DNA from: Diacronema lutheri
Lineage: Eukaryota; Haptophyta; Pavlovophyceae; Pavlovales; Pavlovaceae
Direction: 5' to 3'
DNA length: 64,000 nucleotides
NCBI GenBank assembly: GCA_019448385.1
Contig: JAGTXO010000029.1
Span: 372,001-436,000 of the forward strand
The position numbers and the translations under genes are program-made. The notes below the pieces were generated by a model. That model saw only the letters and a list, made by a program, of their open reading frames with translations, had not been told where the DNA came from and did no database searches. Positions 40,787 through 64,000 of this stretch are shown piece after piece (within the stretch, counting starts at the first letter, position 1; every line of letters begins with the position of its first letter).

Positions 40787-43700
40787 ATGGTGTCCCTGCC
40801 GCCGCTCGCCCCCGCCTTCAAGGCGCTCGCCGTTGGCGAGGGGATGGACGTGGGCGGTGCGTCGAGCGTGCCGTTGCAACCGGTGCCGCGCGGCACCGCC
40901 TCTGCCCGCCTCGCCGCGCTCGAGCACTCGTCCGCCGGCCCGGGCGCGGCCGCTGGCGTCGGCGTCGGCGCAGGCGGCGCAGGCTGCGCGGGCGTCGCGG
41001 GCGCCGTCGGCGGCGGCGCCTTCTCGACGGCGCGCGCGCACCGGACGGTGAGCGCGCCGCTTCCTGACGGGCGGCTCATCGACATGGGCGGGCCCAACGC
41101 GCTCGCTGACCTCGAGCGCGCGCTGCTCGAGCACCTCGCAGGCGCGATGGGCACGGCGCTGCACGTCGTCGAATCATCGCTGCAGGGCAAGGGCGCGACG
41201 GCGGGGAGCAGCCAGGCGGTGCGCTCCTTCTTGCTCGGCAAAGAGAGCGGCGGTGCGCTGCTCGTCTTCCGCACGATCGAGCGCGAGGGCGGCCTGCGCA
41301 AGCTGCGGCTGCACGCGTACCTGTCGGCTCAGGCGGCGCGCGAGCCGCTGTCCGGCGACCTGGGCGCGTGCTGCGTGCGCATGTCGCGCGCGGAGGCGGC
41401 GCGGGGCGAGCAGTCCGCGCCGAGCGCGCGCGCGCCGCTCGATCTCGCCGCCGCGGTGACGGGCGGAGCGGGCGGGCCGGGCCGCCGCCGCTCATCTTTC
41501 GGCGGGGCGGCCGCGGCGCCGTCGGCTCGCGAGCTGCTGCTGCGCGTCGCGATCGCCGCCTTCCCGCCGCCGCGGCCGCCGTTGCACCAGCCGCTGCACG
41601 GCGCGCACGCGCACGCGGCGGGTGGCGACGCCATCGTGATGCGCAGGGGCGCGCCAACCGTCGCGTGGGCGGCGGCGGCCGCCGCACGCGACGGCGGGTC
41701 CGGCGGGTCCGGCGGGTCCGGCGGGTCCGGCGGGTCCGGCGGCGGCGGCGGTGGCGCGCCCGCGGACGCGCTCGGCACCGTTGACGCACCGAGCGCGCTT
41801 GGTCGCGCGGACGGGCTGAGCGGCAGCTTGCTCGCCGCGCGCGCGCTGCTCTCGCAGCTCTACCTGCCCCTCTTGGCATCCCTGCAGCGGCTCTATCTCC
41901 GCGTGCCGCACAGCGCCGCACGGGCGGCAGACGGCGGCGGCATCGGCGGCGGCGTCGGCGCCGGCGCGGTGGGCGACGCGCTCGCGCTGAACGGCGTGCC
42001 GCGCGGCGGCGGACCATTCGAAAGCGACGCGCAGCTCGAGCGTTTTGTCGAGGCGCTGCTCGCGCTGCGCGTCGATGTGATCGCGTGCGTGCAGTCGTTT
42101 GGCGAGGCCGCTGAGACGCTCTCGGCGTCATATCATCTCGCTGCACCGCGTATGCCATTTCCGCTCACCGAGTTCCCGCCACAGGTGCTCTTCGCCGCGC
42201 TCGGCGAGCCGGCGACCGCCGCCACGCTCGGCGTGGCGGGCGGCGGCAACGGCGGCGGCGGCGGTGGCGGCGGCGGCGGCGGCGGCGGGCGTGGTGGCGG
42301 CAGTGGCAGTGGCAGTGCGGCCGGCGGCTCGGCCGACGGCGGCGACGGCGCGGCGGATGGCGGCGCGGACGCCGGGGCGGACGGCGGGGCGGAGTCCTTC
42401 GCCGCCGAGTCGGACGCGGACGGCCGAACGGACGGAGGCCGCACAGACGGCGGCGGCGGCGAGCGCGCCGACCGCGCCGACCGCGCCGATCGCGCGAGTG
42501 CCGGCGACGGCGACGGCGACGGCGACGGCGCAAGCGATGGCGGCGGCGTGCTCTCCGAGCGGTACGGCGGCGTGTCGGGGCTCGAGGTGCTTGCGCGGCT
42601 GGGCGGCGAGGCGGAATATCGCGCGGTCGCGAGGGGTAGCGCCGCCATCGTGGCGTATTGTTCGACTGTGCTCACTGGCTGGGCGATGGAGCTGCGTGGT
42701 GCGATGGGAGGGCAGCACGCGGGGCCGATGGGCGGCGCGGCGCGGCCGCCGTACCACGCGCTGTCTCAGCCGGCGACCGCGCTCGTCGCCGCGGCGGCCG
42801 CGCTCGGCGAGCGCGAGCGGCGTCCGACAATGCCCAGCCGCCGGCAGTTGCTGCCCGCGCTCGACGCGCCCGCGCGGCCGCACACGTCGCCCGACGGCGG
42901 CGGCTGGGCGCAGCCGGCGGCGGCGGCGCCGCCACCCGCCATCGTGCCCGCCATTGCTGCCGCCGCCGGCGGCGGCGGCGCCGACGGCGTGCTGGGCGTC
43001 GGCGGCGTCGGCGGCGGGTTTGGCGGCGCGCGCCGCCGCTCTGTGCTCGACGCGATGAGAGCGGGCGGCGGCGGGGCGAGTGGGGCGGGCGGCGCGGGCG
43101 GCGACGTCGGCGGCGGCGGCGCCGGCGCGCTTGGCGGTGGTGGCGGCGGCTATGGCGATCGCAGCGGCGATGGCAACAGTGCGCCGCTGCTCGGCGGCGA
43201 CGGCTCGGGCGCGGACGCGTTCTCGGCGGCGGTCGAGGCGGCGGCGGCGCTCGGCAAGCGCGACGACGTGGTGCCGGACACGGCGGCGGACACGGCGGCG
43301 GACGCGGCGGCGGACGCGGCGGCGGACGCGGCGGGCGCCGAGCAGGACGCGGAGGCGGAGGAGGGCCCGCTCGTCGAGCTCGAATACTGGCGGAGGCGAA
43401 TGGGCGCGTTGCTGCAGGTGAGCGCGCAGCTGCGCTCGGCCGAGGCGTGCGCGATGGTCGGGATCGTGCGCGCGGCCGCCGCGCTCGGCCAGCGCGACGC
43501 GGCGGAGGTGTGTGACGGGTGGCAGCGCGTCGTCGAGGCGCTCGACGACGCGGCGAGCGAGGCGCAGGACAACGTCAAGTACCTGACGACACTGCAGCCG
43601 CTCATCCTCGTGCTGTACACGGGCTCGCTCGCGCAGATGGCCGACGCCGTCGGCCCGATCGTCGACCAGTTCCGCCTCGTCGCGACGGTCTCGCGCCACT

Positions 43701-45514
43701 ACAACAGCGTCGAGCGGCTGGCCAACCTGCTGCACCGCGTGTGCGCGCAGCTCGTGCGCAACACGCGCGCGTGCCTCGAGCCACCGGGCGAGCCGCGGCT
43801 GCTCCGGCAGAAGGCGAGCGCCGCGCTGCCGCGGCTCGGCGAGGCGCGCGCGCTGCTCGAGGCGTTCACCGCCGCCGTGCGCCGCCTCGCCTCGCAGCTG
43901 CCCGCCACGCTGCCCGCCACGCTGCCCGCGCAGCTGCGCGCGCAGCTGCCCGCGCAGCTGCGCGCGCAGCTGCCCGCGCAGCTGCCCGCGCAGCTGCCCG
44001 CGCAGCATGGCGGCGTGCCGGCCGTTGCGACGCTCAGCGCCGCGCCGATCGGCGCGGGCAAGGCGCCGTTGCTGAGCACGGCGGAGCTCGACGCGCTGTT
44101 CGGGCCCGTCGAGATCTTCGCGCTCCGCCTCGAGCAGCTGAGCTCCGTCCTGACCACCGCGTACCAGTTCGAGCAGCTCGCGGCGACGCGCGTCGACGGC
44201 CTCGCCGAGCTGAGCGCGCTCTTCCGCGCAGCGCTGCGCGTGCTGCACGACCGGCACGGGCGCGTGCTCGACACGGCGGACGCGCAGTTCGAGCTCGATT
44301 ACTACCGGCTGCTCATCGTCGTGCGCAGCCTCGAGTCGACGCTGCAGTCCTTCATCAACGCGCGCTTCGACAACACGCGCAACACCGACGCGGCGTTGCA
44401 CCTCCTCTCGCACTTTGCGCGGCTGCTGCGCGCGGGCGTCGTGCGCGACGACCTGAGCTCCAAGCTCGCCGTCATCTTCCAGGCGTACGCGCTCGACATC
44501 GAGGGCGTGCAGGGCGAGTACGAGGCGCGTAAGGCACAGCCGCCCATCTCGCGCGCGTTCCCGCCCGTCGCGGGCCGCGTCGTGTGGGCGCGGCAGCTGC
44601 TGCGGCGGATCGAGGGCCCGATGGCCATCTTTGCGCGGCACGAGCAGCTGCTGCGCCGGCCCGAGTCGGCGAAGATCGTGCGCCACTACAACCGCGTCGC
44701 GCGCGTGCTCGTCGAGTTTGAGCTCGTGTGGGTGCGCGCGTGGAGCGGCTCCGTCGACGCGGCGCGCGCCACGCTCGCGGCGCCGCTGCTCGCGCGCCGG
44801 CCGGGCACGGGCGAGCTCGCAGTGAACCTCGACCCGGCGGTGACGCAGGCGCTCGCCGAGGCGCGCCACCTGCTCCGCCTCGGCGTCGCCGTGCCCGACG
44901 GCGCCGCGGCGTTGCTGCACGCCGCGCCGCGGCTGCACGCGCACGCGAACGCGCTCGGCGGCGCGCTCGCGTCGCGCGCGCGCGTGTCGCGCGAGCTGCC
45001 GACGGAGCTGCGGCCGCTCCTCGCCGCGCACTTTGCGTCCGTCGACCGCACGCTCGCGCGCGGCGCGGGCGAGCTCTCGTGGGCGTCGGCCGACGCGCCC
45101 TTCTACCTGGCGGCCGTCGAGCGCGGGCTGCGCGAGCTGGGCGCGCTCGTGTCGCGCCTCAAGGGCCTCGCCGAGTTCACGCTGCAGCGCGCGCTCCGCT
45201 CGATTGCGACGTGCTCGCTCCTCGCGCTGCCCGCGCAGGGGCGGACCGTCGCGCTGCACGACTTTGTCGCGATGAACCGCGAGTCGTGCGCGCGCGCGTC
45301 CGCGCTGATCGACGGCAAGCTCGAGGAGGCGGAGCGGGCGGTGCACCTGATCTTCGAGGCGCTCGACGAGGCGGTCGTGTGCGGCGCGCGCCAGCCCGTC
45401 CGGGCGGACGCGCGCGCCGCCGTCCGCCGGCACTACCACGACCTCGCCGGCCATGCGCTCCTCACGGCGACGCGCGGCGCGCTCGCCGCGCTGCAGGCGC
45501 GGCTCACCGTCCGG

Positions 45515-45547
<33 letters not shown>

Positions 45548-46192
45548 GGACGCGGCGGTGGACGCGGCGCTGCCGCCGCGCTCGCGGCGGGCGCGCGCCG
45601 CGTGCGCGCGCGCGCCGAGCTGGGCGGCGGCGGCGGCGGCGGACGCGGCGGACGCGGCGGACGCGGCGGCGGCGGGCCGTCATCGCCGCGCGCGGTCATC
45701 GCCAGCGCGGCGGCGGCGGCTGCGGCGGACGCGGCGGCGGACGCACCGGCCGGGCGGGTGGGCGTCGCGGCCGCCGACCCGTCGTCGCCCCTCTTCGAGG
45801 TGCACGTCGAGCTCTCTGTGCCGGCCGTGACGATCTCGCCGTCCGTCGACACGGTGCAGGCGGCGGTCAACCTCGTGGCGCGCGAGGCGCTCTCCGTCTC
45901 GCGCGCGCAGTTCCGGTGGTCGTGGGCGGAGGCGGCGGCGGAGGCGGAGGCGAGCGGCGAGGCGGCGCGCCGCGAGCTCGACGCCGCCGCCGCCGCCGCG
46001 CGCCAGCGCGCGGCGCTCCTCGCGATGCCCGACGGCGCGGACGGCGTCGCGCAGGGCACGGACGAGCTACAGCGGCCGCTCACGCACGGCGAGCGCGCGC
46101 GGCTGCTCGCCGCCGTCTCGGACGGGCAGTTCCACCGCAAGGCGCGCGCGCTGTACGAGTCGATCGTCGCGCAGCAGCACGCGCAGCAGCAC

Positions 46193-46256
<64 letters not shown>

Positions 46257-46670
46257 ACGCCGATGCGCGCGCGGGCCGGGGCGGCGACGGCGGCGCGCTC
46301 GCGCCTGGGGCGGCGCCGGCGGCCGGCGAGGTGGCGATCGCGGCCGCGCCGGCCGCGGCGCCGGCCGCGGTGCCGGCCGCGGCGCCGGGCGCGGCGCCGG
46401 CCGCGGCGCCGGCCGCGGCGCCGGCCGCGGCGGGCGACGTGGCGGGCGACGGGGCGGCGGCGGCGGCGGCCGCGCCCGTGCCGGCGAGGCGGCCGCCGTC
46501 GGCGCCCGCCGCGGCCGAGCCGTCCGCGCCCGCCGCCGCCGCCGTCGGCGTGCGCGCGCGCGGCGTCGACGCGCGCGTGTCGCTCGCTGCGATGGCTGAG
46601 GGACTGCGCGCCGAGCTGTCGACTGGCGCCGAGTGGCTGCGCGAGGAGGGCGCGGCGACGGCGCCGTCGC

Positions 46671-46701
<31 letters not shown>

Positions 46702-49598
46702 CGACGCGCGCCGTGGCGCGCGGCCGCCCGACGTGTCGCGCGCGTTGCCGCCGCCGCCGAGCGCGGCCGCGCTCTCGGCCGCCGCCGCCGCCGAAGCGGC
46801 GGTCGTGGCGTCGGGCGGCGGCGCGGCGGCGGCGGCGGCGGCGCGGCGCGACACGCTCGCGCGCGCGGCGATCGACGCGCGCCTCGCGTCGGCGCTGTCG
46901 CACTGCGACCGCGACGGGTCGGGCGACGCGTCGTTTGGCGAGTTCGTCGCCGTGTGCAAGCGCCTCGCACGCCGGCACATGCACTCGATGCACAGGCCGC
47001 TCGCGGCGGACATGGCCATCGTGCGCAACGTGCTGCGGCTGACGGGCTCGCTGCACGGGCTCGCGCTCGCCGTCGAGGAGCACGTCGGCTCGTACGCTGG
47101 CTTCGCGCACCTGTGGACAGCATCTGTGCGAGAAGAGGTTGGGCGCTTCCTCGCCACGCAGCCGAGCGCCGATGCGATCATCGTCCAGCTCGCAAAGTAC
47201 GCGGCGCTCGAGGCGCGCGTCGACGGCCTGCCGCCCTTCGCCGCGTACGGCCCGCTCGTGCTCAACACGGCGCACCTCAAGCTCGCGCTGCGCGCCGAGT
47301 GCGGCGCGTGGCGCGGCGCGTACGCGCGTGCGCTGCACGCGATCGCCAAGGCGCACCTCGATGAGCGCCTCGCCTTCTTTGCGACCTGTCGCCGGGCGCT
47401 CGCGCGCGACGTGGGCCTCTCGCCGCCCGCCGCCGCGCTCGCGCGCCGCGCGTCGCGCCACGGCCTCGCCGTCGGCCTCGCCGACGGCGGCGTCGGCGGC
47501 AGCGTCGGCGGCGACGGCGGCGACGACGACGGCGGTGGCGGCGGCGGCGGTGGCGTCGGTGGCGGCGGCGGCGGCGGCGCAGAGCGCGCCGGCCGCTCGT
47601 CGTCGGAGGAGGCCGCGTCCGAGCGCTCGCGCGACGGCGAGGTGCGCCGGAGCAGCTGCGCGAGCGCCGGCGCGGCCGCGGCCGGCGTCGGCGGCGGCGG
47701 CGGTGGCGGCTTCGTCGTCGTCGGTCATGGCGGCGGCGGCGGCAACGTGCTGCTCCACTCGTCCGCGCTCTCCGAGCTGCGCGCGCTGATGGCGTCGATC
47801 CGTATGGTGCAGGCGGCGGACGAGCAGGTGGACGCGGACGTGGGCCGCACGCACGAGCTGTACGACGCCCTCGCGCTGCACATGCCGCGCAAGGTTGCGC
47901 GCGCCGAGGTCGACGCGGTCGACGACCTGCGTGGCTCGTGGCGCCGGCTGCGCGCGCGCGCGGACGAGCGCGCGAGCGAGCTGAGCCGCATGCAGGACGA
48001 GCTGCGCGCGCGGCTGCTCGGCGCGCTGCGCGCGTTCACCGCCGAGCTGCGCGCGCTGCACGAGCAGTGGGAGGCGGCTGGGCCGCTGCGCGCGGATGTG
48101 CCCAACGACGAGGCGCGCGGCCGCCTCGCGGCGTTCGCGCTCGCGTGCGAGAGCCGCGCGGCGCAGCTGCGCGAGCTCAACGTGGGCGAGGCGCTCTTCG
48201 GCCTCGAGCAGACCGCCGCGCCGCAGCTCGTCGACATCTCGCGCGGCTGCGCGCTGTGCGAGAAGCTGCTCGCCCTCGAGGCGGAGCTCGGCCGCGCGAC
48301 CGCGCGCCACCTCGACGCGCCGTGGGTTGAGGTGGGCGGCGCAACGGGCGCGTTCGGCGCGTCGGTCGCGCAGCACGCGCGGCTCGCGGCGCAGCTGCCC
48401 GCCGACGTTCGGCGCGCGCCCGCCTTCGTGCGGCTGCGCGCGCGACTCGACGAGCTCGGCGCGTCAGTGCCCGTGCTGCGCGACCTCGCACAGCCCGCGC
48501 TGCGCGAGCGGCACTGGGTGCAGCTCGCCGCGCTCGCCGGGTTGCGCGCGCTCGACCCCGCCGACCCGGCGCTGACCGCGCGCCGGCTGCTCGGCGGCGG
48601 GCTGCGCGCGCACGCGGCTGAGGTCGCGCAGATCGCGTACACGGCGCGCGAGGAGGCGTCGCTCGAGACGCGCCTCGCCGCGGTGCAGGCGGAGTACTGG
48701 GCGGCCGCGCTCGAGTTCGAGCCGTACAATGGCCGCCCGCTCGGCGTGCTCAGCCTGCGCGCGACGGCCGAGCTGCGCGCGCGCGTCGACGAGGCGCTCA
48801 CCGACCTCGGCGCGATCGCCGGCTCGCGCTTTGGCGGCCCCTTCGAGGCGCGGTGCGGCGCGGCGACGGCGCAGCTCTCCGCCGTCGCCGAGGTGCTCGA
48901 CGCGTGGGTGCGCGCGCAGCTCGCGTACGTGCGCCTCGCGCCGCTCTTCGGCGCCGCCGACGTCGCCCGCTCGCTGCCGCGCCAGGCGAAGCTCTTCGAC
49001 GTGACGGAGCGCGCGTGGGCCAAGCTGCTGCGCCGCGCGGCCGAGTCGAGCGGCGTCGTCGCGCTCGTCGCGTCGGACGAGCACCTCAAGGCGTCGCTGC
49101 AGCTCGTGCTGCAGCAGCTCGAGACGTGCGCGCGCGCGCTCACCGCGTACCTCGAGTCGAAGCGCGTCGCCTTCGCGCGGCTCGGCTTCGTCGGCGACGG
49201 CGGGCTGCTCGAGATCCTCGCGCAGGCGGCGGTCGAGCCGCGCGCCGTGCTGCCGCGCCACCTGCCCGCGCTCTTCGACTCGGTCGTGAGCGTCGAGCTG
49301 CGCGACGACCGGCCGGCGGAGCGGCGCGGCGGCGGCGGCGGCGCAGGCATGGGCGGCGGCGGCGGCGGCGACGACGGCAGCGGCAACGGCGGCGGCGGCG
49401 CCGAGCTCGACGGCGCGGCCGGCGCGCACGCGGGCGGCGCGCTCTGGCGCATCGTCGCCGTCCTCTCCGCCGAGGGCGATCGGCTCGCGCTCGACGGCGG
49501 CGTCGCGGCCGACGGGACGGCGATCGTCGTGCGCGTCGCCGAGCTCGACGCTGAGCTCGCGCTCGCGACGGCGTTCGCGCACCGCTCGGCGCGCGCGT

Positions 49599-49648
<50 letters not shown>

Positions 49649-50358
49649 GGCGGCGGCGCGCCCGCGTCGGCGGCACTCGGCGGCGGCGGCGAGGCGCTCG
49701 GCGTCGCGCTCGTCGGCGGCGCCGAGGCGTGGCTGCATCGGCTGCACCACGCGGTCCGCGCGCACGTGCGCGCGCACGTGCGCGCCGCCGCCACCGACGC
49801 GGCGGACCCCGCCGGCGTTGCGGCGAGCGCGCCCGAGCGGCTCGCGCGCGGCTCGGGCGCGGCGCAGGCGGGCCTGCTCGCGCTCGCGCTGCGCTTTGGG
49901 CACGAGGTGGACGAGGCGCTCGCGGACGGCGCGCCGGCCGACGCGCTCGGCGGCGCGGCGCGCCGCGTGCGCGCGCGGCTCGCGCGCGTCACGGCCGAGG
50001 CCGCGGCGCTGCGCGCGAGCGGCGCGCCGCCGGTGGACGAGCGGCCGGCGCGGTCCGACGCGGACGGGTCGGCGCAGCGCGCGGTCACGGCGGCGCTCGC
50101 GCCGACGGCGGCGGCGTCGCGCGGGTTGGACGGCGCGGCGCGGCGCGTGCTCGGCCGCCTCGAGGGCCTGGCGCTCGAGCTGCTGCGCGAGCGCGACGCG
50201 CTGGGCGCCCTTGTGGACGCGGGCGCGCGCTCGCGCGACGACTGGACGTGGCAGGGGCAGCTACGCCACTCCTTCGAGTTCGACGCGCGCGAGGAGGCGG
50301 CGGCGGACGCGTGGCGCGCGGGTGCGCGCCGCGGCGGCGGTGGCGGCGCGCAGATCGA

Positions 50359-50401
<43 letters not shown>

Positions 50402-53400
50402 TGGGGGCGCGCGGCCGCGCCGCGCGCGCCGACGGCCGCCGCCGCCGACTCGGCGCACGCCGCCGCGGTCGCGACGGTCGCGCGCGCGGGCGCGCTGCGC
50501 GTGCGCGCGCCCGGCGGCGCGTGCATCGACTACGGCTACGAGTGGCTTACGCGCCGATACAGCGCGCAGCTCCCCACCTGCGCGCAGAGCAGCCGCGCGC
50601 AGCTCGCGCTCGCGCACGCGCTGCGCGACGCGGCGGCGCCCGCGCTCGTCGGCGCGCCCGGCGCGGGGCGCGGCGAGCTCGTGCGCGAGCTGGCGCGCGG
50701 GTGCGGCCGGATGCTGCTGCAGCACGAGGCGGACGGCGCGGCGACGGGCGCGCAGCTCTGCCGCCTCGTCGGCGCGCTCGCCAGCGCGGGCGTGTGGTGT
50801 CTGCTGCGCGGCGCGCACGCGCTGCGGCCGGCGGTCGGCGCGCAGCTCGCGCTCGCGCTCGGCGCCGTGCTCTCCGCCATGCGCGCGCGCGCGAGCTGGT
50901 GGCGCGACCCGACGGCGCCGTACGCCGGCGGCACGGCCGCCGGCGCCGCGCATGCGCCGCCGGCCGCCACGGCGGGCGGCGCGGCCGGCGGCGGCGGCGG
51001 CGGCGGCTTTGACGCGCCGAGCGCGCCGATGGCGGACGGCGCGTCGCCGCTGCCGCGCGGCTCGGCGAGCTTCTGCGTCATGCTGCACCTGCCGCCGGCG
51101 CGCGAGTGCGTCGCGTCGCTGCCCGCGTCGCTGCGCGCGCTCCTTCGGCCCGTCGCGCTCGCGCCGCCGGACCTGGCGCACGTCGCGGGCACGCTGCTCG
51201 CCGCGCGCGGCTTCGCCGACGCGGCGGCGCTCGGCGCCGCGGCGAGCCGCCTCGCGGCGCTCGTCCAGCTCGCGCTCCGCCCGCCCGCGCGCGGCGCGAG
51301 GGCGGGCGCTCCGGCGGCGAAGCCGGCGGCGGTCGCGCTCGCACCCGCCGCCGACGGCCTCGACGCGAGCCGCGCCGTCGCGCTCGCGCCGGCCGTGCTG
51401 CTCCGCGCGCTGCACGCGGCGGCCGACGCGCGCGCCGCCGCGCCCGCCGGCGCGGACGAGCGCGCGCTGCTCGTCGCGCAGCTGCGCGCGCACGCGCTGC
51501 CGCGGCTGCCGCACGCGGACGCGCGCGTCGTGCGCGCGCTCGTCGGCGAAGCATTTGGCGTCGTCGAGCTGGACGCCGCGCCGGCGGCGGGCGCGGGGGG
51601 CGCGGCGGGCGGTGGCGGCGCGTCCGACGCGCTCGCCGCCGAGGGCGCCGTCGAGCCGCCGCCCACGCGCGCGAGCTCGTCGGCGTCGCTGCCGTCCACG
51701 GCTGCGGGCGCGGGCGCGGGCGCGGGCGCGCCGGCCGCGCGGGCCGAAGCCGCCGTGCGGCTCGCGCTGCTCGTCGCGCTGCACTCGCGCGCGCCCGGCG
51801 GAGCGGAGGCGGAGCGCGCCGACGACGTTGGCGGCGCGTCGCCGCGCGAGGGCGGTCGGCACGCCGCGCACGCGCTCGAGGCCGAGCCCGCGTGGCTGGG
51901 CAAGTGCGAGGCGGTGCACGAGGCCGCGAGCGCGCACGGCGCGATCATCATCGTCGGCGCGCCCGGCTCGGGCAAGAGCGAGGCGCTGCGCACGGTGCTG
52001 CGCATGCGCCGGCGCGCGGCGGCCGCGCGCGCGTCCGGCGCGCGCGTCGGCGCGACCGGCCGGCGCGCGAGCGTGGGCGCGGCCGCCGCCGCGGCGCCGG
52101 TCGAGCGGCGGCTGTATGTGCGCGCGACCGACGCGGCCGCGCTGTGGGGCAGCGTCGACGCGGCGCACGGCGAGTGGCGCGACGGCGCGCTCGCGAGCGC
52201 GTGGCGCGACGCGCTCGCTGCCGACGCGCCCGAGGGCGCGGCGGATGCGCGCGACGACGGCGGCGGCGGCGGCGGCGACGGCGAAGGCACGTGGCTCGTG
52301 CTCGACGGGCCGGTGGACGGCGAGTGGCTCGCGCAGCTCGGCTCGGTGCTCGGCGCGGCGCGCGGCGCGCTGCACCTGGGCAACGGCGACCGGCTGCCGA
52401 TGGCGCGCGGCATGCGCCTCGTCGTCGAGACGGACAGTCTCGCGCACGCGCCGCCGGCGCACGTCTCTCGGTGCGGCGTCGTGCACTTTGGCGCCGAGAC
52501 GCTCGGCTGGGAGGCGCTGTGGCGCGGCTGGCTGCGCGCGCACACGCTGCTCGGCGACGCGCAGCGCGCGACGCTCGACCGTCTCGCGCAGCACTACCTT
52601 GGGCTGCGCGCCGACGACGACGCGGCCGGCGCGGCCGCCGCCGGCCGCGCCGCCGCGCCCGGCCGGCCGCGCGAGAGCGCGCTCGCGTTCGGCGCGCGCT
52701 CGTGCGGGCCGGCGGTCGCGCCGCTCTCGGACGTGGCGCGCGTGAGTGCGCTGCTCGCGCTGATCGACGGCCACCTCGCCGCCGCGCGCGAGGCCACGCT
52801 CGAGCTGCAGGCCGACGCCGGCGGCGACGGCGGCGAGGCCGACGACGCGCAGCAGCCCGCGGACGACGCGGCCGGTGCGGGCGGGCCGGCGCGCGGCGCG
52901 CCGACCGCGGGCGGCGACGGGCCGGCGGCGGCGGCCTTGTCGGGCGTGGGCGGTGCGGACAAGGATCGGCCCGACGCAGCACGGTCCAGTCGCCTCCGCC
53001 GCCGCCACTCGCGGCTCGGCTCGATGTGCGGCTCGACGGCGGGCGGCGGCGCACACGCCGGCGGCGCGCCGCGCGACTCTGCCAGCGCGCGCGCGCGCTG
53101 CTCGCGCTCGAGCGTCTCGATGGGCAGCGCGAGCTCGGCGGCGGCAGCCGTCGCGGCGGCGGCCGCCGCCACGGCCGGCGCCGCCGCCGCCGCCACCGCC
53201 GCCGCGACCGCCGCCGCCAGGCGCGGCGCCGGCGCGGCCGACGCGCCGGCGGCGCGGCCGGCGACGCTGCGGCGCGGCTCGACGAACGCGTCGAGCCTCT
53301 GGCGCGTCGCGTTCGCGGTGAACGGGTCGACGACGGCGTCGATCGCCGCAGCGTCGGCCGTGCCGCTCCTCTCGCACGGCGCGCTCTGCCGCATCTTCGT

Positions 53401-53650
53401 CCACGCGCTCGCGTGGGCCATCGGTGGCCATCTGCCGCGCGCGGGCCGCGCGCGCGTCGACGCGTGGCTGCGCGCCGCGTCGCCGAACGAGCTGGCGGCG
53501 GGCGCGGTGGACGAGCTGGGCCTGGCGCAGCTGGCCGCTTCGCCGGACGTGCACCGCTCGCCCGCCGCGAGCAAGGGCGCGAAGGGCGACGCGCCGCCGC
53601 CGGCGGCGGGCACGGCGCGCGCGGCTTACGGCGGCGCGGATGGCGGCGGC

Positions 53651-53709
<59 letters not shown>

Positions 53710-55890
53710 CGGCGGTGGCGGCGGCGGCGGCGGCGGCGGCGGTGGCGAGCGCGAGCGCTCGACAGGCACGCGCGCGCGGCTGGGCCGGCGCTCGGGCCAA
53801 GGTGCCGGCGCCGACGGCAGTGGCGGTGGCGGCGGCGGCGGCGGCGCGGGCGGCGTGGGTGCCGACGCGCAACCGGCGGCGGCGTCGGCGCGCGGCGGTG
53901 GCGGTGGCGCTGGCGCCGCGGTGGGCGCGGCTGACAGCGCGGACGCGAACGGCGGCGGCGTGGCGGGCGCCGTGCTGCCGCCCGCGCCGCGCGTGGACGG
54001 GCATGGCGGGTACGGCGGGCACGAGCTGACCGTGTACGAGATGATGCTCGCTGTGACGGCGGACGGCGCATCGTGGGAGCGCGCCGACGGTGCGCTCAAC
54101 GCGCTCCTCGACGCGGCGGCGGCGGCGGGGGCAGGGGACGGCGGCACTCCCGCGCGGGCGGGCGCGCGGAGTGGCGGAGGCGGCGGACCCGCGCCGGGCG
54201 GCGCGTCCGTCGGCCCGGCCCTCGTCACGCCGGCGCTCCACCCGAGCGCGCTGCGCGCGGGCGAGCCGCTCGCGCTGGTCGGCGGGCGCGCGCTGAGCGG
54301 CTGTGGCGAGGTGCTGCTGCCGACGGCCGAGTCGCTCGTGCTCGCGCAGCTCATCCGGCTGTGCCACGCGCCGCAGCCCGGGCCGAGCGGCGGCGCGCTC
54401 GAGGCGGACGCGGCGCGCGGCGCGAGCGGCCGGCGCCTCGTGCTGCTCGCGGGTGCGGCGGGGTGCGGCAAGCTGTCGGTGGCGCGGCTGCACGGCGCGG
54501 CCGAGGCGCTGCGCCATTACGCGCCGCCCGACGAGACGGCCGACGAGGCGTTCGGCGGCGCCGGCGTCGACGGCGCGAGCGGCGCGGCGCGCAGCGGCTA
54601 CGGCTACACGGAGCTGCCGCTGCGGCTGCACCCGACGGTGCGCGCGCTGCGCGTCGCGCTGCGCGCGCTGCTCGAGCCGCTGCCGCAGGGCCGCGCGCTT
54701 GGCCCCGCGCACGGCCGCCGCCGGCTGTGCGTGTGCGTCGACGACGTGGGCGCGGGCACGGCCGACGCGGGTGGGTGCGCCGAGCTGCTGCGCGCGCTGC
54801 TCGAGGCGCGCGCGCTCCCCGAGCCGCGCGCGCCGGCGGGCAGCGCGCGCGTGCGCGGGCTGCTGCTCCTCGGCACGCTGCACGCGCAGCCCGCGCGCGC
54901 CGCCGAGCGGCCGGCGGCCGCCACCGCCGCCGAGCCGCGCGGCCGCGGCCGGCTCGGCTCCGTCCTCACGCTCGGCGGCAACGGCGGTGCGGGCGGAGGC
55001 GCGGGCGCGCCGCCCGCGCCCGCCGGGCTGCCCGCGCGGCTCGCGCGGCACGCGTGCGTGCTCTGCGTCGACGCGCCCTCCGACGGCGCCGTCTCGTCCG
55101 TCTTCCGCCCGCTCCTCTCGGCGCTGTGGGCGCACGAGGCGGCGACGGGCGTCGCGGCCGGCCCGCTCCTCGGCGTCGCGCACGTCGACGCGCACGTGTC
55201 GATGTGGCGCGGCGCGGACAGCACGGGGCGCGAGGCGGCGGCGGTGGCGCGCAAGCTGCAGCTCCTCGCCGCGGCGGGCGGCGCGCCGCCCGCCGCCGCC
55301 AAGATGCGCGTGGGCGGCGCGACGCGCGCGACGGTCGACGGCAACGTTGCGATCGGCGGCGGGCGCGTCATCTCGCGCGTCTCCGCGGCGGTGGGGCTCG
55401 CGGCGCACGCGATCGCCGTCGACTCGGCGGGCAGGCGGCACGTGACGGCGGAGCGGTGCGTCGAGGTGCTCGTCCCCATCCTCGATCGGCTGCCCGCGCT
55501 CACGCGCGCGCTCGCCGCCGCCGTCGCGGCGGGCAGCGCCGTCGAGCTCCCGCGCCCAAGCCGCGCGCCCGCAAAGGCGGAGCGCGCCGGCGCCGGCGGC
55601 GCCTCCGCGGCGGCGGTCGCCGCGGCGGCGGCCGCCGCCTCCGCCGCCGCCGTCGCGGCAGCGGGCAGCGGCATGCACGGCGCGCGCGCGCGCGCCGCAG
55701 CGCCGAGCGCTCTACCGCCCGCGGCCGCCGACGCGGGCGCGGGCGCGGGCGCTGGCGCGGACGCGCCGGCCGCGCCGCACGCCGGCGCGCCCGCGGGCGG
55801 CGGTGGCTCGGACGGCGGCGGCGCGGACGCGCGCGGCGCGCGGCCGCACTGCGCGAACGACGCCGCCGAGCCGGCGGCGGTGGCGACGGT

Positions 55891-55921
<31 letters not shown>

Positions 55922-56237
55922 GGCGTTGGCACCGGCGGCGACGGGGGCCGCGGCGCCGAGCGCGCGCGATCGCTCGCGCCTGCAGCGGCGGGCGCGGCGG
56001 CGGCGGGCGCGCACGGCGTCCGCAGCTTGGTTGACGGGGGCGCACGCGGGGATGAGGATGAGCCGGCGTTCCTCACCGTCGCGAGCGCGTTCCTCACCGT
56101 CGCGCCGGCTGGCTTGGGCGCGGGCGCGGGCTTGGGCGCGGGCGCGGGCGCGGAAGGCGTGCGCCCGCTGCCGAGCCCGACGGCGTCGGAGCGGCGGCTG
56201 GGCGGCGCATCGGCCAACGCGGACCGGCTTTCGGCGC

Positions 56238-56275
<38 letters not shown>

Positions 56276-58585
56276 AGCGGTGGCGGTGGCGGCAGCGGCG
56301 GCGGCGTTGGCGTCGGCGGCGGCGGCGGCGGTGGCGGCGTCGGCATCGGTGGCATCGGCGGCGGCGGCGGCGGTGGTGGTGGCGGTGGCGCCCCTGGTCT
56401 CGACGACGAGGCGCTCAACATTCAGCGCGCGCCCCTCCTCTGCCACTCGGCGGTGCAGGTGCCGACGACCGTCACGTTTGGCCAAGTGCACGCCGTCTTC
56501 GCGGGGCTCGCGCTGCTGCCGCTCGTCAAGCTGACCAAGGCGCGCGCGGAGGTGCTCGCCGAGAAGCGCGAGGACTCGGCGATGGCGGAGGCGGCGCTCG
56601 CGGCCGCGGCGGTGGAGGCGGCGCAGCGCATCTCGCGCATGCAGCTCTCGGGCGGCGGCATGGGCACGCGCGGCCACTCGCGCACCGTCTCGCGCGGCGT
56701 CTCGCGGCACGCGTCGCCGGGCGCATCGCCGCGCGGCGACGACGCGCCGTCCGCGCTCGCGAGCCGCAAGGTGTCGCTTAATCAGCATGGCGGCGGGAGC
56801 GGCGGCGGCGGTGGCGGCGGCGTTGGCGGTGGCGGCGGTGGCGGCGGCGGCGGCGGCGAGGCGGCACCACCGCCCGTCGCCGCGCAGGCCGCGCCGCGCA
56901 GCCTGCGCGGCGGCGGCGCGCATCGCGCGGGCGTCGGCGGCGGGGGCGGCGGCGGCGGCGCGTCGGCGGCGGACGGCGGCGGCGACAAGCGCGAGGCGAG
57001 GCGCGCGGCCGCCGCGTCGGCGTCGGCCACGGCCGCGAGCGCGGACGAGCGCTGGCACGAGGACGACCGTTCGATGGCGTCCGACCCCGTTCCTGGTCTC
57101 GACCCTCCACCGGCGGCCGGCGGCGGCGTTGGCGGCGGGAACGGCGGCGGCGGCGGTGGCGGCGGCATTGCGCTACCGGACGAGCCGTTTGGCGCGGACG
57201 AGCCGCCGCCCGCGGAGGGCGCGCCCGCCGCGGACGGCGACGGTGGCGCGGGCGCGCGCGCCGCCGCGCAGATGGGCGCGCGCTCGCACTCGATCGGAGG
57301 CGGCGTGCGCCGGCAGTCGGAAGGGGCCTCGTCGCTTGCGGCGGCTGGGCAGCGGCGCCCGTCGATCGATTCGTCGGACACGCACGACGGTGTGGCGGCG
57401 GAGGGCGGCGCCGTCGCCGTGCGCCGGCGCAGCGGCAAGGGCAAGGCGGACGCGGCCGAGCGCGGCGCGGACGCGGCGCTCGCGCACCGGCCGCGCGCCG
57501 CGCCGGTGTCGTACGGCGAGAGCGGCGCGCGCGGGATCGACCTGGCGTCGCTGCCGACGGCGACGCAGCTTGCGGCGAGCCTTGGGCCGCAGCTGCTCCT
57601 CGCGGCGTGGGCGCACGAGTGCGAGCGCGTGCTCGCCGACGGGATGGTGGACCACGGCGGCAAGCTGGCGCTCGATGTGGACGCGCCCGCCACGCACAGC
57701 GGCGGCTCGTCGCACGGCGGCTCGACGCGCGGCGGCAAGGGCGCGCGCGACGTGGCGCCCCCGCCGCCGCGCACGTGGTTCCGCGCGCAGCTCGAGCGCC
57801 TCGTGCGCGCGGCCTTCCCCGAGCACGCGGCGGGCGCGCTGCACGAGCGCGAGGCCTTTGCGCTCTTCGCGCCGACGGCGCTCGCCTCGCCCGCGCTCGC
57901 CGCAGCGGCGGGCAACGGCGTCGTGGGCTCGCAGCAGGCGGCAGCCGCGGCGGCCGCGGCGGCGGGCGCGGCGGCCGCGGCGGCGCGCGCGCAGCTCGAG
58001 CCGCCGCGCGACGGCTGGGCGGCGCCGCCATCTTTTGCGTTCGCCATTCCGCTGCCGCCGCCCGCGGGCGTGCTTGCGATTGGCGGCGGCGAGTATGGGC
58101 CCGTCGCGCAGGTGGGCGCGCTGCACGATGGCGGCGCGCACGCCGAGCTCCGGCGGCTGCTGCTGCTGCACGCGCGCGCGCAGACCAAGCACGCGCCGCC
58201 CGGCGTCGGCGTCGGCCGCCTCGAGCTGCACGACGATGCGATCATCGCGTGCGTCCGGCTCACGCGCTCCCTCGCGCTGCCTGCCGGCCACGTGCTCCTC
58301 GTCGGGCCGGCGGGCACGGGCCGGCGCACGCTCGTCCGCCTCGCCGCGTACGTGCTCGGGCACGCGCTCGCCGCGCCGCCGCCGCCGCCGCCCGCCGAGG
58401 CGCTCGGGCTTCACGGCGACGGCGGCGACGATGCGCACGCGCGCGGCGCAGACGGCGGCCGCGCCGACGGCGCGGGCGGCGCGGCGGCCGGCGGCGGCGG
58501 CGACGCGCACGGCGTGGCCGCTGCGGCGGTGGCCGCTGCTGCCGCCGCCGGTGGCGGCGGAGGCGCCGGCGCCAGCAGCAGCAGC

Positions 58586-58616
<31 letters not shown>

Positions 58617-59996
58617 GCACGGGCGTCGGTGGCGACGAAGGCGCGCACGCGGCGCGCGAGCTCGCGGCGAGCTGCGTGCTGGGCGGCTGCCTGCTGCCCG
58701 TGCTGCGCGCCGCCGCGCTCGCGCGCGTCGGCACGACGGTCCTCCTGTCCGACGCGCACGTGCTGCACGCGGGCGCGCTGCCCGTGCTCCACGCGCTGCT
58801 CCGCTGGCCCGAGTACCTCCTCGAGCTGCTGCCGCGCGCGCAGGCGGCCATGCTGCTTGCGGAGCTCGAGGCGCAGGATCGGCAGGAGGAGGCGGCGGCC
58901 GCGCTCGAGTTGGCCGAGCTGCGCGCCGCGCGCGCCGGCGCAGCGCACGGCCGCGCCGCGTCGATCGACGGCGGCGGCGCCGTCGACGCGCACGGGAGCG
59001 GCGGCGGCAGCGGCGGATTTGGAGGCGGCGGCGGCCGCGAGGCGCCGCTGCGCCGCATCAAGCGCCAGTCGCTCGTCACCGAGCTCGCGCTGTCCGCGCC
59101 GGGCGCGGACGGCGAGCGGCGGATGGGCGCAGCGGCGAGCGCCGCGGCGATCGTCGCCGCGGCGAGCGCGCCGCTGCACGCGCCGTCGGCGGCGAGCGGC
59201 GGCGGCGACGGCTCGGCGGGCGGCGCGTGGCGCGGCGGCCGCGCGCAGGTCGGCCAGCAGGCGCGCCGGCCGCTCTCAGCGGCCGGCGGCGGCGGCGGCG
59301 TCGGCGGCGGCGGCGGCGGCGGCGGCGGCATGGCCGGCCGTCGAGCGGCCGTGCCCGCCGCGTCCGGCGGCGCGGCCACCGGCGCGAGCGCGGCGACCGG
59401 CCTCGTCGCGCCGCCCGCCGCGGGCTCGGAGGGGCGGATGCGCGCGGCAGCCGCGCGGCGCGTGCGCCGGCACGTGCGTGTCGTGCTCTGCCTCGCGCCC
59501 GAGCCGGCGCACGCGCACGCGCACGCCGGCGGTGCACGCAGCGCGCTGGGCGCCGTGTGCGCCGAGGCCGCCGGGCTGCACGCGCACCTGCGCGCGCAGT
59601 GGGTGGGCGGCTGGCCGCACGAGGCGCTCGCCGCGGTCGCGCTCGGCGCGCTCGACGACGCGGAGGGCACCGGCGCGGACGGCGCGGACGGCGGGATGGC
59701 CTCGCCGCAGTCGGCACGCTCGGTGTGCTCGGCGGAGGGCCTCCCGATCAGCAGCCGGACCGCGCGGCTCTCGGACCATTCCGACGACGACGGCGACGAC
59801 CTGACCGCACAGGCGCTCTCGGTCGCGTACGCGGCGGCGCCGGCGCCGGCGCAGCCGCAGCCGCAGCCGCAGCCCGGCGCGGCCGTGGAGCCGCCGCCGC
59901 GCGCGTCGGGCGCCGCGTCCGCGGCCGCGCTCGCCGCGGCCGCCGCCGCATCGTCGGGCGCGGCTGCGGACGCGGTGGCGGACGCGAAGTCGCCGC

Positions 59997-60063
<67 letters not shown>

Positions 60064-61863
60064 AACCGCCGCCGCCATTGACGGCGCAGCGCACCAGCCG
60101 CCGGCGGAGGTCGGGTTTGCGCTCGGCGAGATCGTCCTGCCGGTGCACGCGCGCGTCGCGCGGCTGCTCGCCGACGCGCACCGCACGGCGGTCGCGGCGC
60201 GCGCGCGCAGCGTTGCCCACGCCGAGCGCGCGGGCGGTGCGCCCCTGCCCGCGCTCATCGACGCGCGCACGCTCGGCGCGGCGGCGCGCGCGTACGCGGC
60301 GCTCTGCCGCGCGGCCGAGCACCGGCTGGGCGGGCGCGAGGAGCTGATCGACGCCGCGCTGCGCAACCTGGCGCAGGCGGAGCGGGACGTGGCCGAGCTG
60401 TCGCGCGCGCTCTCGTCCGAGCGCGCGCAGCTGCAGCGGAGCAACGAGGGGCTCACGGACATGCTCCGCCTCATCTCGCTCACGACGGCAGAGGCGCAGC
60501 GGCGCAAGGGGCTGCTCGCCCTCTCGACGCGCGGCCTCGCCGAGCGCACGCAGCGGCTGCAGCTCGCGACGGTCGAGCGGGAGGCCGGGCTGGGCGACGC
60601 GGTGCCGCGCATGCGCGCGGCGGAGGAGGCGATTGCGTCCATCTCGGACAAGGTGCGCGCGCGCGCGCGCGATCGCTCGCCCGTCCTGCCGTTCGCCCGC
60701 CCCGCCCTTCGCCCGCCCGCCCACCCGCCCGCCCGTCCGCCCGTTCGGCCGCTTCGCCCGCGCGCGCCGCGCGGCGCCCCTGCAGGACGTGCAGTGGCTC
60801 AAGGCGCTGCGCAACCCGCCCGAGGTGATCAAGCTTGCCTTCGACTGCGTGCTGCTCATCCGCCAGCTGCCCGTCGAGCCGCTCCGGTTGCAGGAGCGAG
60901 AGCCGAGCAGGGCGGACGCGGCGGCGGCGGCGACGCGCGCGCGCGAGGAGACGGGGCCGGCCGAGCAGCAGCTCGCGATCGTGCCGTCGTGGGCGCTCGC
61001 GCAGGCGATGCTCGCCGACGCGTCCTTCATCCGCGAGCTGCTCTCCGTCGACAAGGACTCGCTCAACGACGAGACCGTCGAGCTGCTCCACGCGTACACG
61101 CAGCACGCCGACTTTAGCGCGCAGAGCGCGCGCCGCGCGTCGGCCGCGCTGTCGGGCCTCGTGCAGTGGGTGAGCGCGCTCGTCCAGTTCCACGACGCGG
61201 CGCGGCGCATCAAGCCGGTGCTCGCGCGGCTGCGCGCCGCGCGCGTCGAGGCGCGCGTGCACGAGGGCCGGCTGCGCGACGCGCAGCTCCAGCTGGACAA
61301 GTCGGCGGCCGAGGTGGCGCAGCTGCAGGCGCGCCTCGACGCCGAGACGAGCCGCAAGACGGCGCTCGCCGCCGACGCGCGGGCGGCGGAGGCGAAGCTC
61401 AAGCTCGCGCGCGAGCTCGTGTCCAACCTCGTCGCCGAGCGGCCGCGCTGGCAGGCCGCGCGCGCCGCCGCCGCGGCTGAGCGCGCGACGCTGCACGCGG
61501 ACGCGGCGTGCAGCGCGGCCGCGATCGTCTACGGCGGGCCGCACGCGCCGCACGCGCGCGCGCGCCTCGTCGCCGAGCTCGCGCAGCTCGGCGCCGCGCA
61601 CGGGCTCGCGCCGCGCGCGTCGCTCGAGCCGGGCCTCTTCGGCGCGACCGACGTGCAGCGCGCGCGCTGGGCGGGCGCGGGCCTGCCCGCCGCGGACGCG
61701 CACGCGCGCGGCTCGGCGCTCGCGATGCGGCACGCGGCCGGCTGGCCGCTCGTCCTCGACCCGCACGGCGTCGCGCTGCGCTGGCTGCGCGGCGCGCACG
61801 CGCGGCACGCGCGCTGGCGCGCGGCCGGCGCGCGCGCCGACGACGGGCCGCTCCCGCCACCGC

Positions 61864-61918
<55 letters not shown>

Positions 61919-64000
61919 GCGCGCCGCGCACGCCGGCGGCGCGCGCGCCGGCGCGGTCGACGCGGCGGACGCGGCGGCGCGCGACGGCCTCGTCGAGGTG
62001 GACGTGCGCGCGCGGCCCGCGGTGCTGCTGCGCGCGCTGCGCGCCGCGCTGGGCGCGGGCGCGGCGCTCGTGCTGAGCGGCGTCGACGCGTGCCCGTTGC
62101 CGCTCGCGCTCGCCGACGTGCTCGCCGCCGGGCCGCGGCTGCGCGCGCGGCACGCGCACACGGCGGCGGACGCGTTCAGCCCGCTCGGAGGCGGCGCGGC
62201 CGACGCGGCGGCGGGCGCGTGGGGCGGCGGCGGCGGCTCGGCTGTCGCGGCGGGCGCGGTCGCCGCCGCGCGCGCCGACGCGGCGCTGGGTACGGAGGCC
62301 GACTCGGCGGCCGAGGCGGCGGCCGCCGCCGCGCTGCGGCCGGCCGGCACGTGGGCGCCGCGGCTTGCGGTGCGCGCGGGCGACGCGCTGCTCGAGGCCG
62401 AGCCGACCTTCTGCGTCTACGTGCTCTCGCCGTGCGAGCGCGCCGCGTCGGCCGTGTGCGGGCCGGGCGACGAGCTGCGCGCGCCACTCGCGCGCGCGCC
62501 CGCCGCGCCGCGCGCCGCCGGCGTGGCCGCGGCCGACGGCGAGTGGCGCGGCGGGCGCGCGCTCATGCTCGACGAGTGGAGCGGCGGCGTGCTCTCGCCC
62601 GTCTGCTTCGCGCCGTCGGCGGGCTGCCTCGAGGCCGTGCTGCTGCGCGCGGCCGTCGCGCTCGAGCGGCCCGAGCTCGCGCTGCAGCACGCGGCCGTGC
62701 GCGCGGACGCGGCGCGCGCGGGCGCGGCGCTCGGCGCGCGCGAGCGCGCGCTGCTCGGCGCGCTCGCGCACGCGCACGGCCGCGTGGTCGAGCACGTGGG
62801 CACGCTCAGCTCGCTCGGCGCGCAGCGCGGCGCGCTCGCTGCCGCGCTCGCGCGGCGCGACGCGTGCGCCGAGAACGCCGCGCGGCTGGAGCGCGCGGTG
62901 GCGGAGTGGGCGCCCGTCGCGCGGCACGCGCTCGCCGCGCACGTCGCGCGCGCGAGCGTCGCGCATGCGGCGCGCGGCGCACGCGCGCGCCCGTCGGTCG
63001 CCGAGGCGGAGCGGCTGCTCGCGCGCGCGTGCCGCTCCGCGCGCCACCACCGGCTGCCCGAGGTGCGCGCCGCGCTGCTCGCCGCCGAGTACACGCGGCT
63101 CGCGCGCGCGGCGGGCGCGCGCGGCTGCGCCGACGCGCGCGAGCGGCTCGTGCTCGACGTCGCGCTCGCCGCGGCGGTCGACGAGGCGCGCACCGGCGTG
63201 CGCGTGTCGCGCGCGCTCGTCGGCGAGTTCGCCGCCGCCGCCGTCGCCGAGGCCGCCGCCGACGCCGACGCCGGCGCCGGCGCCGACCGCGCGCCCGCCG
63301 ACGCGCCCGCCGACGCGGCGCGCGCGCGGGCGGCGGGCGCGCTCTCGGCGCCGCTGGTGACGGCGGGCGGCCTCGGCGGCGAGCTGCGCTCGCCGCCCGC
63401 CGGCTGGCCCGAGTGGCTGCCGACGGGCGCGGCCGCGCAGCTGCGCGTGCTGCACGCGCTGCCCGCCGACGTCGGCCTCAAGAACCTCGCCATCTCGATC
63501 GGCTCGCCAAACGAGGAGACGCAGGCGGCGTGGCGCGCGTGGGTGCGGCTGCGCACGCCCGAGCGCGTGCCGCCGCCGCGCTTCGCGCGCGAGCTCGCCG
63601 GGCCGCTCGCGCGGCTGCTCGTCGTGCGCGCGCTCCGGCCCGACCGGCTCGCGCGCGCGGCGGACGCGTACGCCGACGCGGTGCTGCGCACGCCGCCCGC
63701 CGCCGCGGCGCGCGCGAGCGACGCGCCGGCCGGCGGGCGCGAGGGCGCGGGCGCGCCACTGCCGCCCGCGCGCGTGCGGCTCCTCGACGCGGCGGCGGAC
63801 GGCGGGCCGGACGCGCCCGTCGTCGTGTTCGCCGACGGCGGCGCGACCGGCGCGCTCTCCGCCGGCGCGCTCGCCGCCGACCTCGTGCGCGCGCTCGCCG
63901 CCGAGACAGGCTGCGGGCGCGCGCACCCCGACGAGCGCGCGCACGGCCGCGCCAGCGGCGGCGCGCTCCGGCTGGGCGGCGGCGGTGGCGGCGGTGGCGC
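40787..64000 (+). CDS. giant dynein heavy chain (partial, runs past window end)
   Basis: Exon 1 is 40787-60652 (6,622 codons, phase 0). Exon 2 starts 60786 and is still open at 64000 (1,071 codons). Order: tail DHC_N1 (about aa 860-1565, from VELEYWRRRMGALL); an EF-hand loop DRDGSGDASFGE (aa 2041-2052); linker DHC_N2 (about 2560-2830, LLEILAQAAVEPRAVLPRHL); AAA1 (P-loop GAPGAGRGE, aa 3289); AAA2 (GAPGSGKSE, aa 3724; LDGPVDGEW); AAA3 (GAAGCGK, aa 4556; CVDD); AAA4 (GPAGTGRRT, aa 5840); stalk CC1; microtubule-binding region and CC2 in exon 2; AAA5 (GWPLVLDPHG); start of AAA6 (LLVVRALRPDRL). Typical heavy chains are about 4,500 aa; this has 7,693 in view. Gly/Ala/Ser-rich inserts account for most of the excess. 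AAA1 lacks the P-loop Lys and Walker B acids. Confidence 0.9.
41697..41745 (+). repeat. 9-bp coding repeat (GGS) in dynein
   Basis: Five copies of GGCGGGTCC encode GGSGGSGGSGGSGGS in the N-terminal tail. Confidence 0.85.
43900..44007 (+). repeat. 12-bp coding repeat (Q-L-P/R-A) in dynein tail
   Basis: Copies of CAGCTGCCCGCG/CAGCTGCGCGCG, with a CCACGCTGCC variant at the start, encode a QLPAQLRAQLPAQLPAQ stretch within the DHC_N1 region. Confidence 0.85.
46193..46255 (+). repeat. (GCG)21 poly-alanine
   Basis: Twenty-one consecutive GCG codons (aa 1803-1823) in the dynein tail, followed by long Ala/Pro stretches to about 46560. Confidence 0.9.
49601..49657 (+). repeat. poly-glycine (19 codons)
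   Basis: Nineteen consecutive Gly codons, nearly all GGC, at aa 2939-2957 in the linker region. Confidence 0.9.
53642..53746 (+). repeat. poly-glycine (35 codons)
   Basis: Thirty-five consecutive GGC/GGT codons (aa 4286-4320) between the AAA2 and AAA3 modules; the longest homopolymer in the protein. Confidence 0.9.
59999..60064 (+). repeat. poly-alanine (22 codons, GCC)
   Basis: Twenty-two Ala codons, almost all GCC (aa 6405-6426), between AAA4 and the stalk. A different codon is used from the GCG run at 46193, so the two expanded independently. Confidence 0.9.
61866..61916 (+). repeat. poly-glycine (17 codons)
   Basis: Seventeen GGC codons in exon 2, within AAA5 after the GWPLVLDPHG motif. 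Confidence 0.9.

Follow-up and report, generated by a model that had tools for sequence, protein, structure and literature searches.

The question raised by this locus is what a dynein heavy chain gene of about twice the normal size encodes. Dyneins are viewed as motors for which AAA1 is indispensable. The gene was analysed in a 64,000-nt stretch of the Diacronema lutheri genome (contig JAGTXO010000029.1, positions 372,001 to 436,000 of the forward strand; hereafter the window).

Gene model and domain arrangement

The gene spans 40787..67441 (+) in window numbering continued downstream, and consists of four exons with 8,743 codons, ending with TAG at 67441 (Table 1). The gene end is located 3.4 kb beyond the window, and the remainder is supplied by the next 6,788 contig bases directly after it (L009; L009:655 corresponds to 64655 in the continued numbering). 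The 6,843-aa open frame at 40586-61117 (+) corresponds to exon 1 and a read-through of the intron. The initial annotation had claimed a heavy chain of at least 7,693 residues with the full dynein domain order. The in-window exon bases give exactly 7,693 codons, and the full gene is larger than was claimed; the order was confirmed by Pfam, which gives DHC_N1, DHC_N2, AAA_6, AAA_8, MT and AAA_9 in sequence. The C-terminus of the spliced product is dynein-like. AAA5 is strongly degenerate, as are AAA6 and the C-terminal domain; the last two match Dynein_heavy (E 8e-4) and Dynein_C (E 0.01-0.02) only below the cut-off, and the alignment there is collinear. The Chlamydomonas gamma chain has 4,485 aa, and the window gene is ~4,250 residues longer. 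According to the usual splice sites of the genome, the predicted length is about 8,485-8,743 residues; under the most permissive rule it is ~6,550.

Table 1. Positions of the features of the dynein gene and of the contig end (window numbering, continued beyond 64000)
Feature	Position	Strand	Description
Exon 1	40787..60652	+	Start codon to end of stalk helix CC1, residues 1-6622; open frame, splice junction
Intron 1	60653..60785	+	133 nt, GTGCG..GCAG; joins CC1 to microtubule-binding domain in frame
Exon 2	60786..64655 (in window 60786..64000)	+	Ends at L009:655
Intron 2	64656-64794	+	139 nt, GTGCG..GCAG
Exon 3	64795-66542 (L009:795-2542)	+	Spliced frame
Intron 3	66543-66693	+	151 nt, GTGCG..GCAG
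Exon 4	66694-67441 (L009:2694-3441)	+	TAG stop
DHC_N1 tail part (docking/dimerisation)	43292..45463	+	Pfam DHC_N1 2.9e-107; one insert >=15 aa (30 aa)
Linker, main part	47792..49309	+	C82b positions 1138-1638; DHC_N2 1.8e-61; zero inserts >=15 aa
AAA1, degenerate	50504..51214	+	C82b positions 1820-2040; 29/94 invariant positions kept
AAA1 Walker A position	50651..50680	+	GAPGAGRGEL vs GPAGTGKTET
AAA1 Walker B position	50789..50821	+	GVWCLLRGAHA vs GxWxCFDEFNR
AAA1 sensor I position	51074..51112	+	VMPPAREC; asparagine of ITMNPGYAGR lost
AAA2	51851..52675	+	Walker A GAPGSGKS, Walker B LVLDGPVD, arginine-finger region HVSRCG, all kept
Insert, 154 aa	53552..54013	+	Very long glycine run
AAA3 Walker A to Walker B	54452..54757	+	GAAGCGKLS to VCVDDV
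Largest single insert, 291 aa	56714..57586	+	AAA3-AAA4 region; 349 aa when merged with neighbour
AAA4 Walker A to Walker B	58304..58762	+	GPAGTGRRT to VLLSD; AAA_8 8.1e-12
Stalk helix CC1	60293..60652	+	Start approximate
Microtubule-binding domain	60786..61232	+	One 21-aa insert
Stalk helix CC2	61233..61502	+	
AAA5 motif WPLVLDPHGV	61743..61772	+	Residues 6942-6951; placed via exon 2 offset
Degenerate telomere-like array	L009:6071-6788		Mostly TGAGGG, some TTAGGG

The gene is subtelomeric, its end being ~2.6 kb from a TTAGGG/TGAGGG telomere-like array at the contig end. The GC content climbs from 0.75 to 0.85 along the gene, and GC1/GC2 is 0.85/0.65 compared with 0.61/0.36 in C82b, an ordinary gamma chain gene of the same genome. 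The D. lutheri assembly is described as having 73.25% GC (PMC8379373). The open frame at 35859-38819, just upstream of the dynein gene, matches a reverse transcriptase below the threshold (E 8.6e-4).

Gamma ancestry and loss of the AAA1 motifs

For the tail-to-AAA3 part, the best PDB matches are the Chlamydomonas gamma chain (7kzm_C, 1.3e-177) and DNAH5. When a 500-aa tail piece was compared with the genome, the identities were 46% for C48b, 39% for C9a, 37% for C82b and 40% for C9:2394530, and the next match showed 29% at E 2.9e-23. C82b gives 2,996 bits to 7kzm_C, C48b is also nearest to 7kzm_C (1,034 bits), and C36a is a beta chain. A linker tree was made from 12 of the 24 heavy-chain loci (10 ordinary, the window gene and C48b; D. 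lutheri only). The gamma clade is recovered at 100/100 and the pair of the window gene and C48b at 99/97, both members of the pair being of unusual composition and the window gene forming a long branch. At the level of sequence, the window gene is assigned to the outer-arm gamma (DNAH5/8) class, and not to the beta or inner-arm classes. The sister C48b (C48:295000-314999, L030-L031) is located on the same contig, 120 kb upstream, and is a second degenerate gamma chain; its AAA1 reads GAPGSGKAG at the Walker A position, Walker B (LDEL) is kept, and sensor I is lost. Intact gamma copies also exist in the genome.

The outer-arm set is large for an alga with two flagella, with five gamma-type tails and two beta-type chains (C36a, and C75a by the tree). 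The DNA of C82b and C9a, both intact gamma chains, is 99-100% identical over ~250 AAA1 codons (L018:6501-7250, matching L023) and 46-99% identical elsewhere, with other high patches; the pattern looks like a recent gene conversion taking in the catalytic module. A third giant degenerate heavy chain was observed at C5:453000-472999 (L032-L033), with 7,109 aa and a frame open through the 20 kb examined. Its AAA1 P-loop position reads GDADGGKCE and its linker match is only 4.6e-11. C5:459174 is not counted as a gamma relative, as blastp gave zero hits to the other 12 proteins and the dynein matches are weak. At C93:78936-79082, a weak AAA_6 match (E 9.8e-4) lies in a 7,567-aa open frame, perhaps another giant AAA protein. 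The search of IMG/VR gave no relative.

AAA1 powers dyneins (PMC8754002). In the alignment, the AAA1 of the window gene lacks the lysine and threonine of Walker A, the two acids of Walker B, and sensor I. The genome (43,492,796 bases, 103 contigs) was searched, and 30 PF08393 matches were collapsed by hand to 24 heavy-chain loci, the counts of this search being lower bounds. The AAA1 Walker A (GxxxxGKT) is retained in 21 of the 24 loci. The exact Walker B pattern is present in 18, and C6 and C47 are outside the pattern yet have both D and E. Ten ordinary loci, C48b, C5 and the window gene were studied at length. In the other 11 alignment rows, C48b included, D and E of Walker B are kept (near-invariant columns). 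C75:797957, in which the exact motifs are missing, was rejected as a degenerate chain, as its AAA1 reads GPAGVGKTE and CLDEFN. Between ordinary classes, AAA1 is the best kept among the compared modules (58-64% identity to C82b for four chains), whereas the window gene shows 21%. The predicted structure of AAA1-AAA2, itself of low confidence (pLDDT 59.5), matches dynein rings, and carries no argument on pocket geometry. The AAA1 ATPase site looks destroyed, and the motifs of a catalytic motor are missing. Since the composition is shifted by GC pressure, a part of the AAA1 loss (e.g. K to R) is possibly drift.

The other modules were compared within the D. lutheri genome. Of the positions that do not vary among three ordinary outer-arm chains, the window gene keeps 77/127 in the tail, 44/61 in the linker, 26/39 in the stalk and 28/48 in AAA2, and AAA1 shows the lowest retention of the modules compared. 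The microtubule-binding domain has 38% identity to that of C82b, and four ordinary chains of other classes have 26-44%. For the linker, the identity to C82b is 31%, compared with 24-30% for ordinary chains of other classes. The predicted structure of the microtubule-binding domain shows the dynein fold for this domain, with gamma as the nearest class and matches tied in Z. Conservation is at the ordinary paralogue level in the DHC_N1 tail, in most of the linker and in the microtubule-binding domain. A tail insert contains an EF-hand-like loop, DRDGSGDASFGEF, at 46907..46945 (+), found in the window gene only among the 13 heavy-chain proteins scanned. The strict pattern, picked after the loop had been seen, occurs once, compared with an expectation of 0.004 per locally shuffled protein, and the Pfam EF-hand_1 match is weak (E 0.011, below the cut-off). 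Calcium control through this putative loop is a lead only.

Nature of the inserts

When the protein was aligned with six ordinary heavy chains from the same genome, 51 inserts of at least 15 aa were found, with a total of 3,594 aa and blocks of <15 aa left out of the tally. The low-complexity residues of the window gene and C48b were masked for this alignment and restored afterwards. The inserts make up ~40% of the protein. Low complexity amounts to 32% of the window-gene protein, whereas for ten ordinary dyneins of the genome the largest frames have 0-3%.

The third codon position has strictly the lowest A+T in 40 of the 51 inserts, position 1 in seven and position 2 in none. The pooled A+T by codon position is 448/887/227 for the inserts, whereas that of 15 introns, counted from the first base, is nearly flat (141/187/170). 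These introns are mostly C-rich. They comprise the 12 scoring at least 4 among 24 machine-placed introns of other loci, together with the three of the window gene; as the score rewards GTGCG and GCAG, the derived consensus is partly built in. Glycine is encoded by GGC at 86% in the inserts and at 81% in both the core and C82b, and the codon use for Gly, Ala and Ser in the inserts is much as in ordinary genes. The inserts contain no in-frame stop, compared with 10.5 expected from Markov resampling (least seen, 2), and the 8,743 codons contain none compared with about 50 in the resamples. All 51 inserts preserve the frame. An in-frame GTGCG..GCAG pair is present in only three of them (258 aa removable), and a looser donor gives four (317 aa). 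With any GT..AG, 28 inserts have a pair, and 2,189 aa are removable when one longest candidate is taken per insert. The periodicity, the codon usage and the scarce splice pairs point to translation of most of the inserts. The excess was correctly described beforehand as Gly/Ala/Ser-rich blocks between and inside the AAA modules, and these blocks are mostly coding. The accompanying caution, that stopless introns may be mistaken for inserts, is reasonable in principle: 12 of the 15 introns studied are free of stops in the first frame, and C48b has a probable in-frame intron of 252 nt at L031:5516-5767, detected by the same splice-pair scan. For most inserts, however, splice consensus, composition and codon periodicity led us to reject an intron.

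The inserts are unevenly placed. One insert point falls in the DHC_N1 tail compared with 7.8 expected, and none in linker positions 1138-1638 compared with 5.9 expected, both ranges having been picked after viewing the map. Inserts are present in the first 242 tail positions, at positions 906-1137, and in the final part of the linker (C82b positions 1639-1815), where five reach 15 aa. Twelve of 36 insert points lie near an insert of C48b, compared with 4.1 expected (P 0.0006). The common positions fit either an expansion that began in common or surface loops shared by both.

Interpretation and known systems

According to the initial annotation, the product would be among the largest motor proteins, which the analysis does not support. 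The domain order is complete and the frame is open, in keeping with an active giant motor, but AAA1 has lost both Walker motifs and sensor I; this reading is scarcely credible, and we reject it on these motifs. It is very improbable that the gene encodes a dynein of ordinary length with many in-frame introns, or that the contig is mis-assembled. The C48b intron and the stopless introns agree with the former, but the usual splice pair is rare in the inserts, the A+T contrast between inserts and introns is large, and codon use is ordinary. Moreover, removal of the inserts does not rescue AAA1, as the lost motifs sit in aligned sequence. A nucleotide-sensing scaffold is also improbable. In such a protein AAA2-AAA4 would still bind nucleotide and thereby switch the stalk, with no power stroke from AAA1, and the site of action might lie away from the axoneme (e.g. 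arm assembly, haptonema). The AAA2 Walker A and B motifs are intact, the AAA3 Walker A lysine and much of the AAA4 P-loop are kept, and the EF-hand-like loop could add calcium control. However, the AAA3 Walker A threonine and the AAA4 motif NNCTIDWF are lost.

In the main competing reading, that of a ghost gene, a former gamma heavy chain is decaying slowly near the chromosome end, and the full product would have no positive role. The frame would stay open because stops are rare at >80% GC and truncated chains would poison dimers. The same idea has been put forward for DNHD1 (PMC8754002), and it is consistent with the subtelomeric position, the extreme GC, the degenerate AAA1, AAA5, AAA6 and C-terminus, and the intact gamma copies. 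Against it, every insert is in frame, stops are absent and the splice sites are intact. AAA1 is lost, whereas the linker and microtubule-binding domain remain at the level of ordinary paralogues, and avoiding dimer poisoning needs no conserved microtubule-binding domain. We regard such decay as rather unlikely.

With moderate confidence, we favour an expanded non-catalytic outer-arm gamma heavy chain, a pseudo-motor that may act as a tether, brake, spacer or scaffold. A gamma heavy chain gene would have been duplicated, and two copies, the window gene and C48b, would have been released from selection on ATP hydrolysis by AAA1. In-frame low-complexity inserts would then have gathered in both copies, aided by GC pressure, the window gene being subtelomeric. 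Selection would have continued on the DHC_N1 tail, the linker, the stalk and the microtubule-binding domain. The genomic setting agrees with duplication, a relaxed AAA1 and repeat growth driven by GC. We infer that the gene is expressed and its product assembled into some outer arms in place of the active gamma chain, where its tail would pair with the catalytic beta chain. On the neighbouring doublet it could act without hydrolysis as a tether, brake or spacer, as Cik1/Vik1 do for Kar3.

The tethering or braking role is proposed because arm assembly needs the gamma tail and not the gamma motor, as seen in oda2-t, where arms form without that motor (PMC12338079; PMC11496786), and because rigor binding has been linked to gamma orthologues and outer-arm activity seems to be suppressed by the gamma chain (PMC4415241). 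On the other side, the degenerate AAA5, AAA6 and C-terminal domain exceed what loss of hydrolysis needs, and the intact gamma genes may do all the work. The microtubule-binding domain of C48b is poorer (29%), and therefore no tether role common to both sisters is established. It is doubtful, though conceivable, that there is a pseudo-motor family of at least two gamma-derived chains. Their dead ring would serve as a microtubule clamp and spacer beside an active beta partner, so that in some outer arms a live leg would stand next to a dead one. Calcium control through the acquired EF-hand-like loop and a restriction to one flagellum or to the haptonema are conceivable.

The locus is of interest because the lost AAA1 contrasts with the kept tail, linker and microtubule-binding domain, and because of the role that the product may have. 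The window gene shows that an AAA ring tolerates in-frame insertion on this scale. If the non-catalytic gamma chain is real, it is a natural separation-of-function case that asks for gamma-chain roles besides ATP hydrolysis, and whether dynein evolution made non-catalytic partners as kinesin-14 did. In the open-access literature (titles and abstract openings; subscription papers outside the scope), no report of the gene or of AAA1-dead outer-arm chains was found, and the sole paper found there on D. lutheri and dynein treats the alpha chain.

The best solved relatives, Chlamydomonas ODA2 gamma and DNAH5/DNAH8, share with the window gene the tail, linker, stalk, microtubule-binding domain and domain order. 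Unlike ODA2 gamma, the window gene has a destroyed AAA1, the large excess of residues, and degenerate AAA5, AAA6 and C-terminus. The Kar3 partners Cik1/Vik1 resemble the proposed chain in having a non-catalytic head, which acts as a foothold beside a catalytic partner (PMC4338441); their motor family is unrelated, and the likeness is one of analogy only. In oda2-t, too, a gamma chain without motor activity still permits arm assembly (PMC12338079; PMC11496786), but this laboratory mutant has no motor domain, whereas the window gene keeps the stalk and binding domain. None of the best 60 of 87 PDB sequence matches is named DNHD1. By description only, the nearest published case is this animal orphan or 'ghost' chain, likewise a heavy-chain paralogue that is degenerate and yet retained (PMC8754002). 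Unlike DNHD1, the window gene is clearly an outer-arm gamma chain, has an algal host and carries huge inserts.
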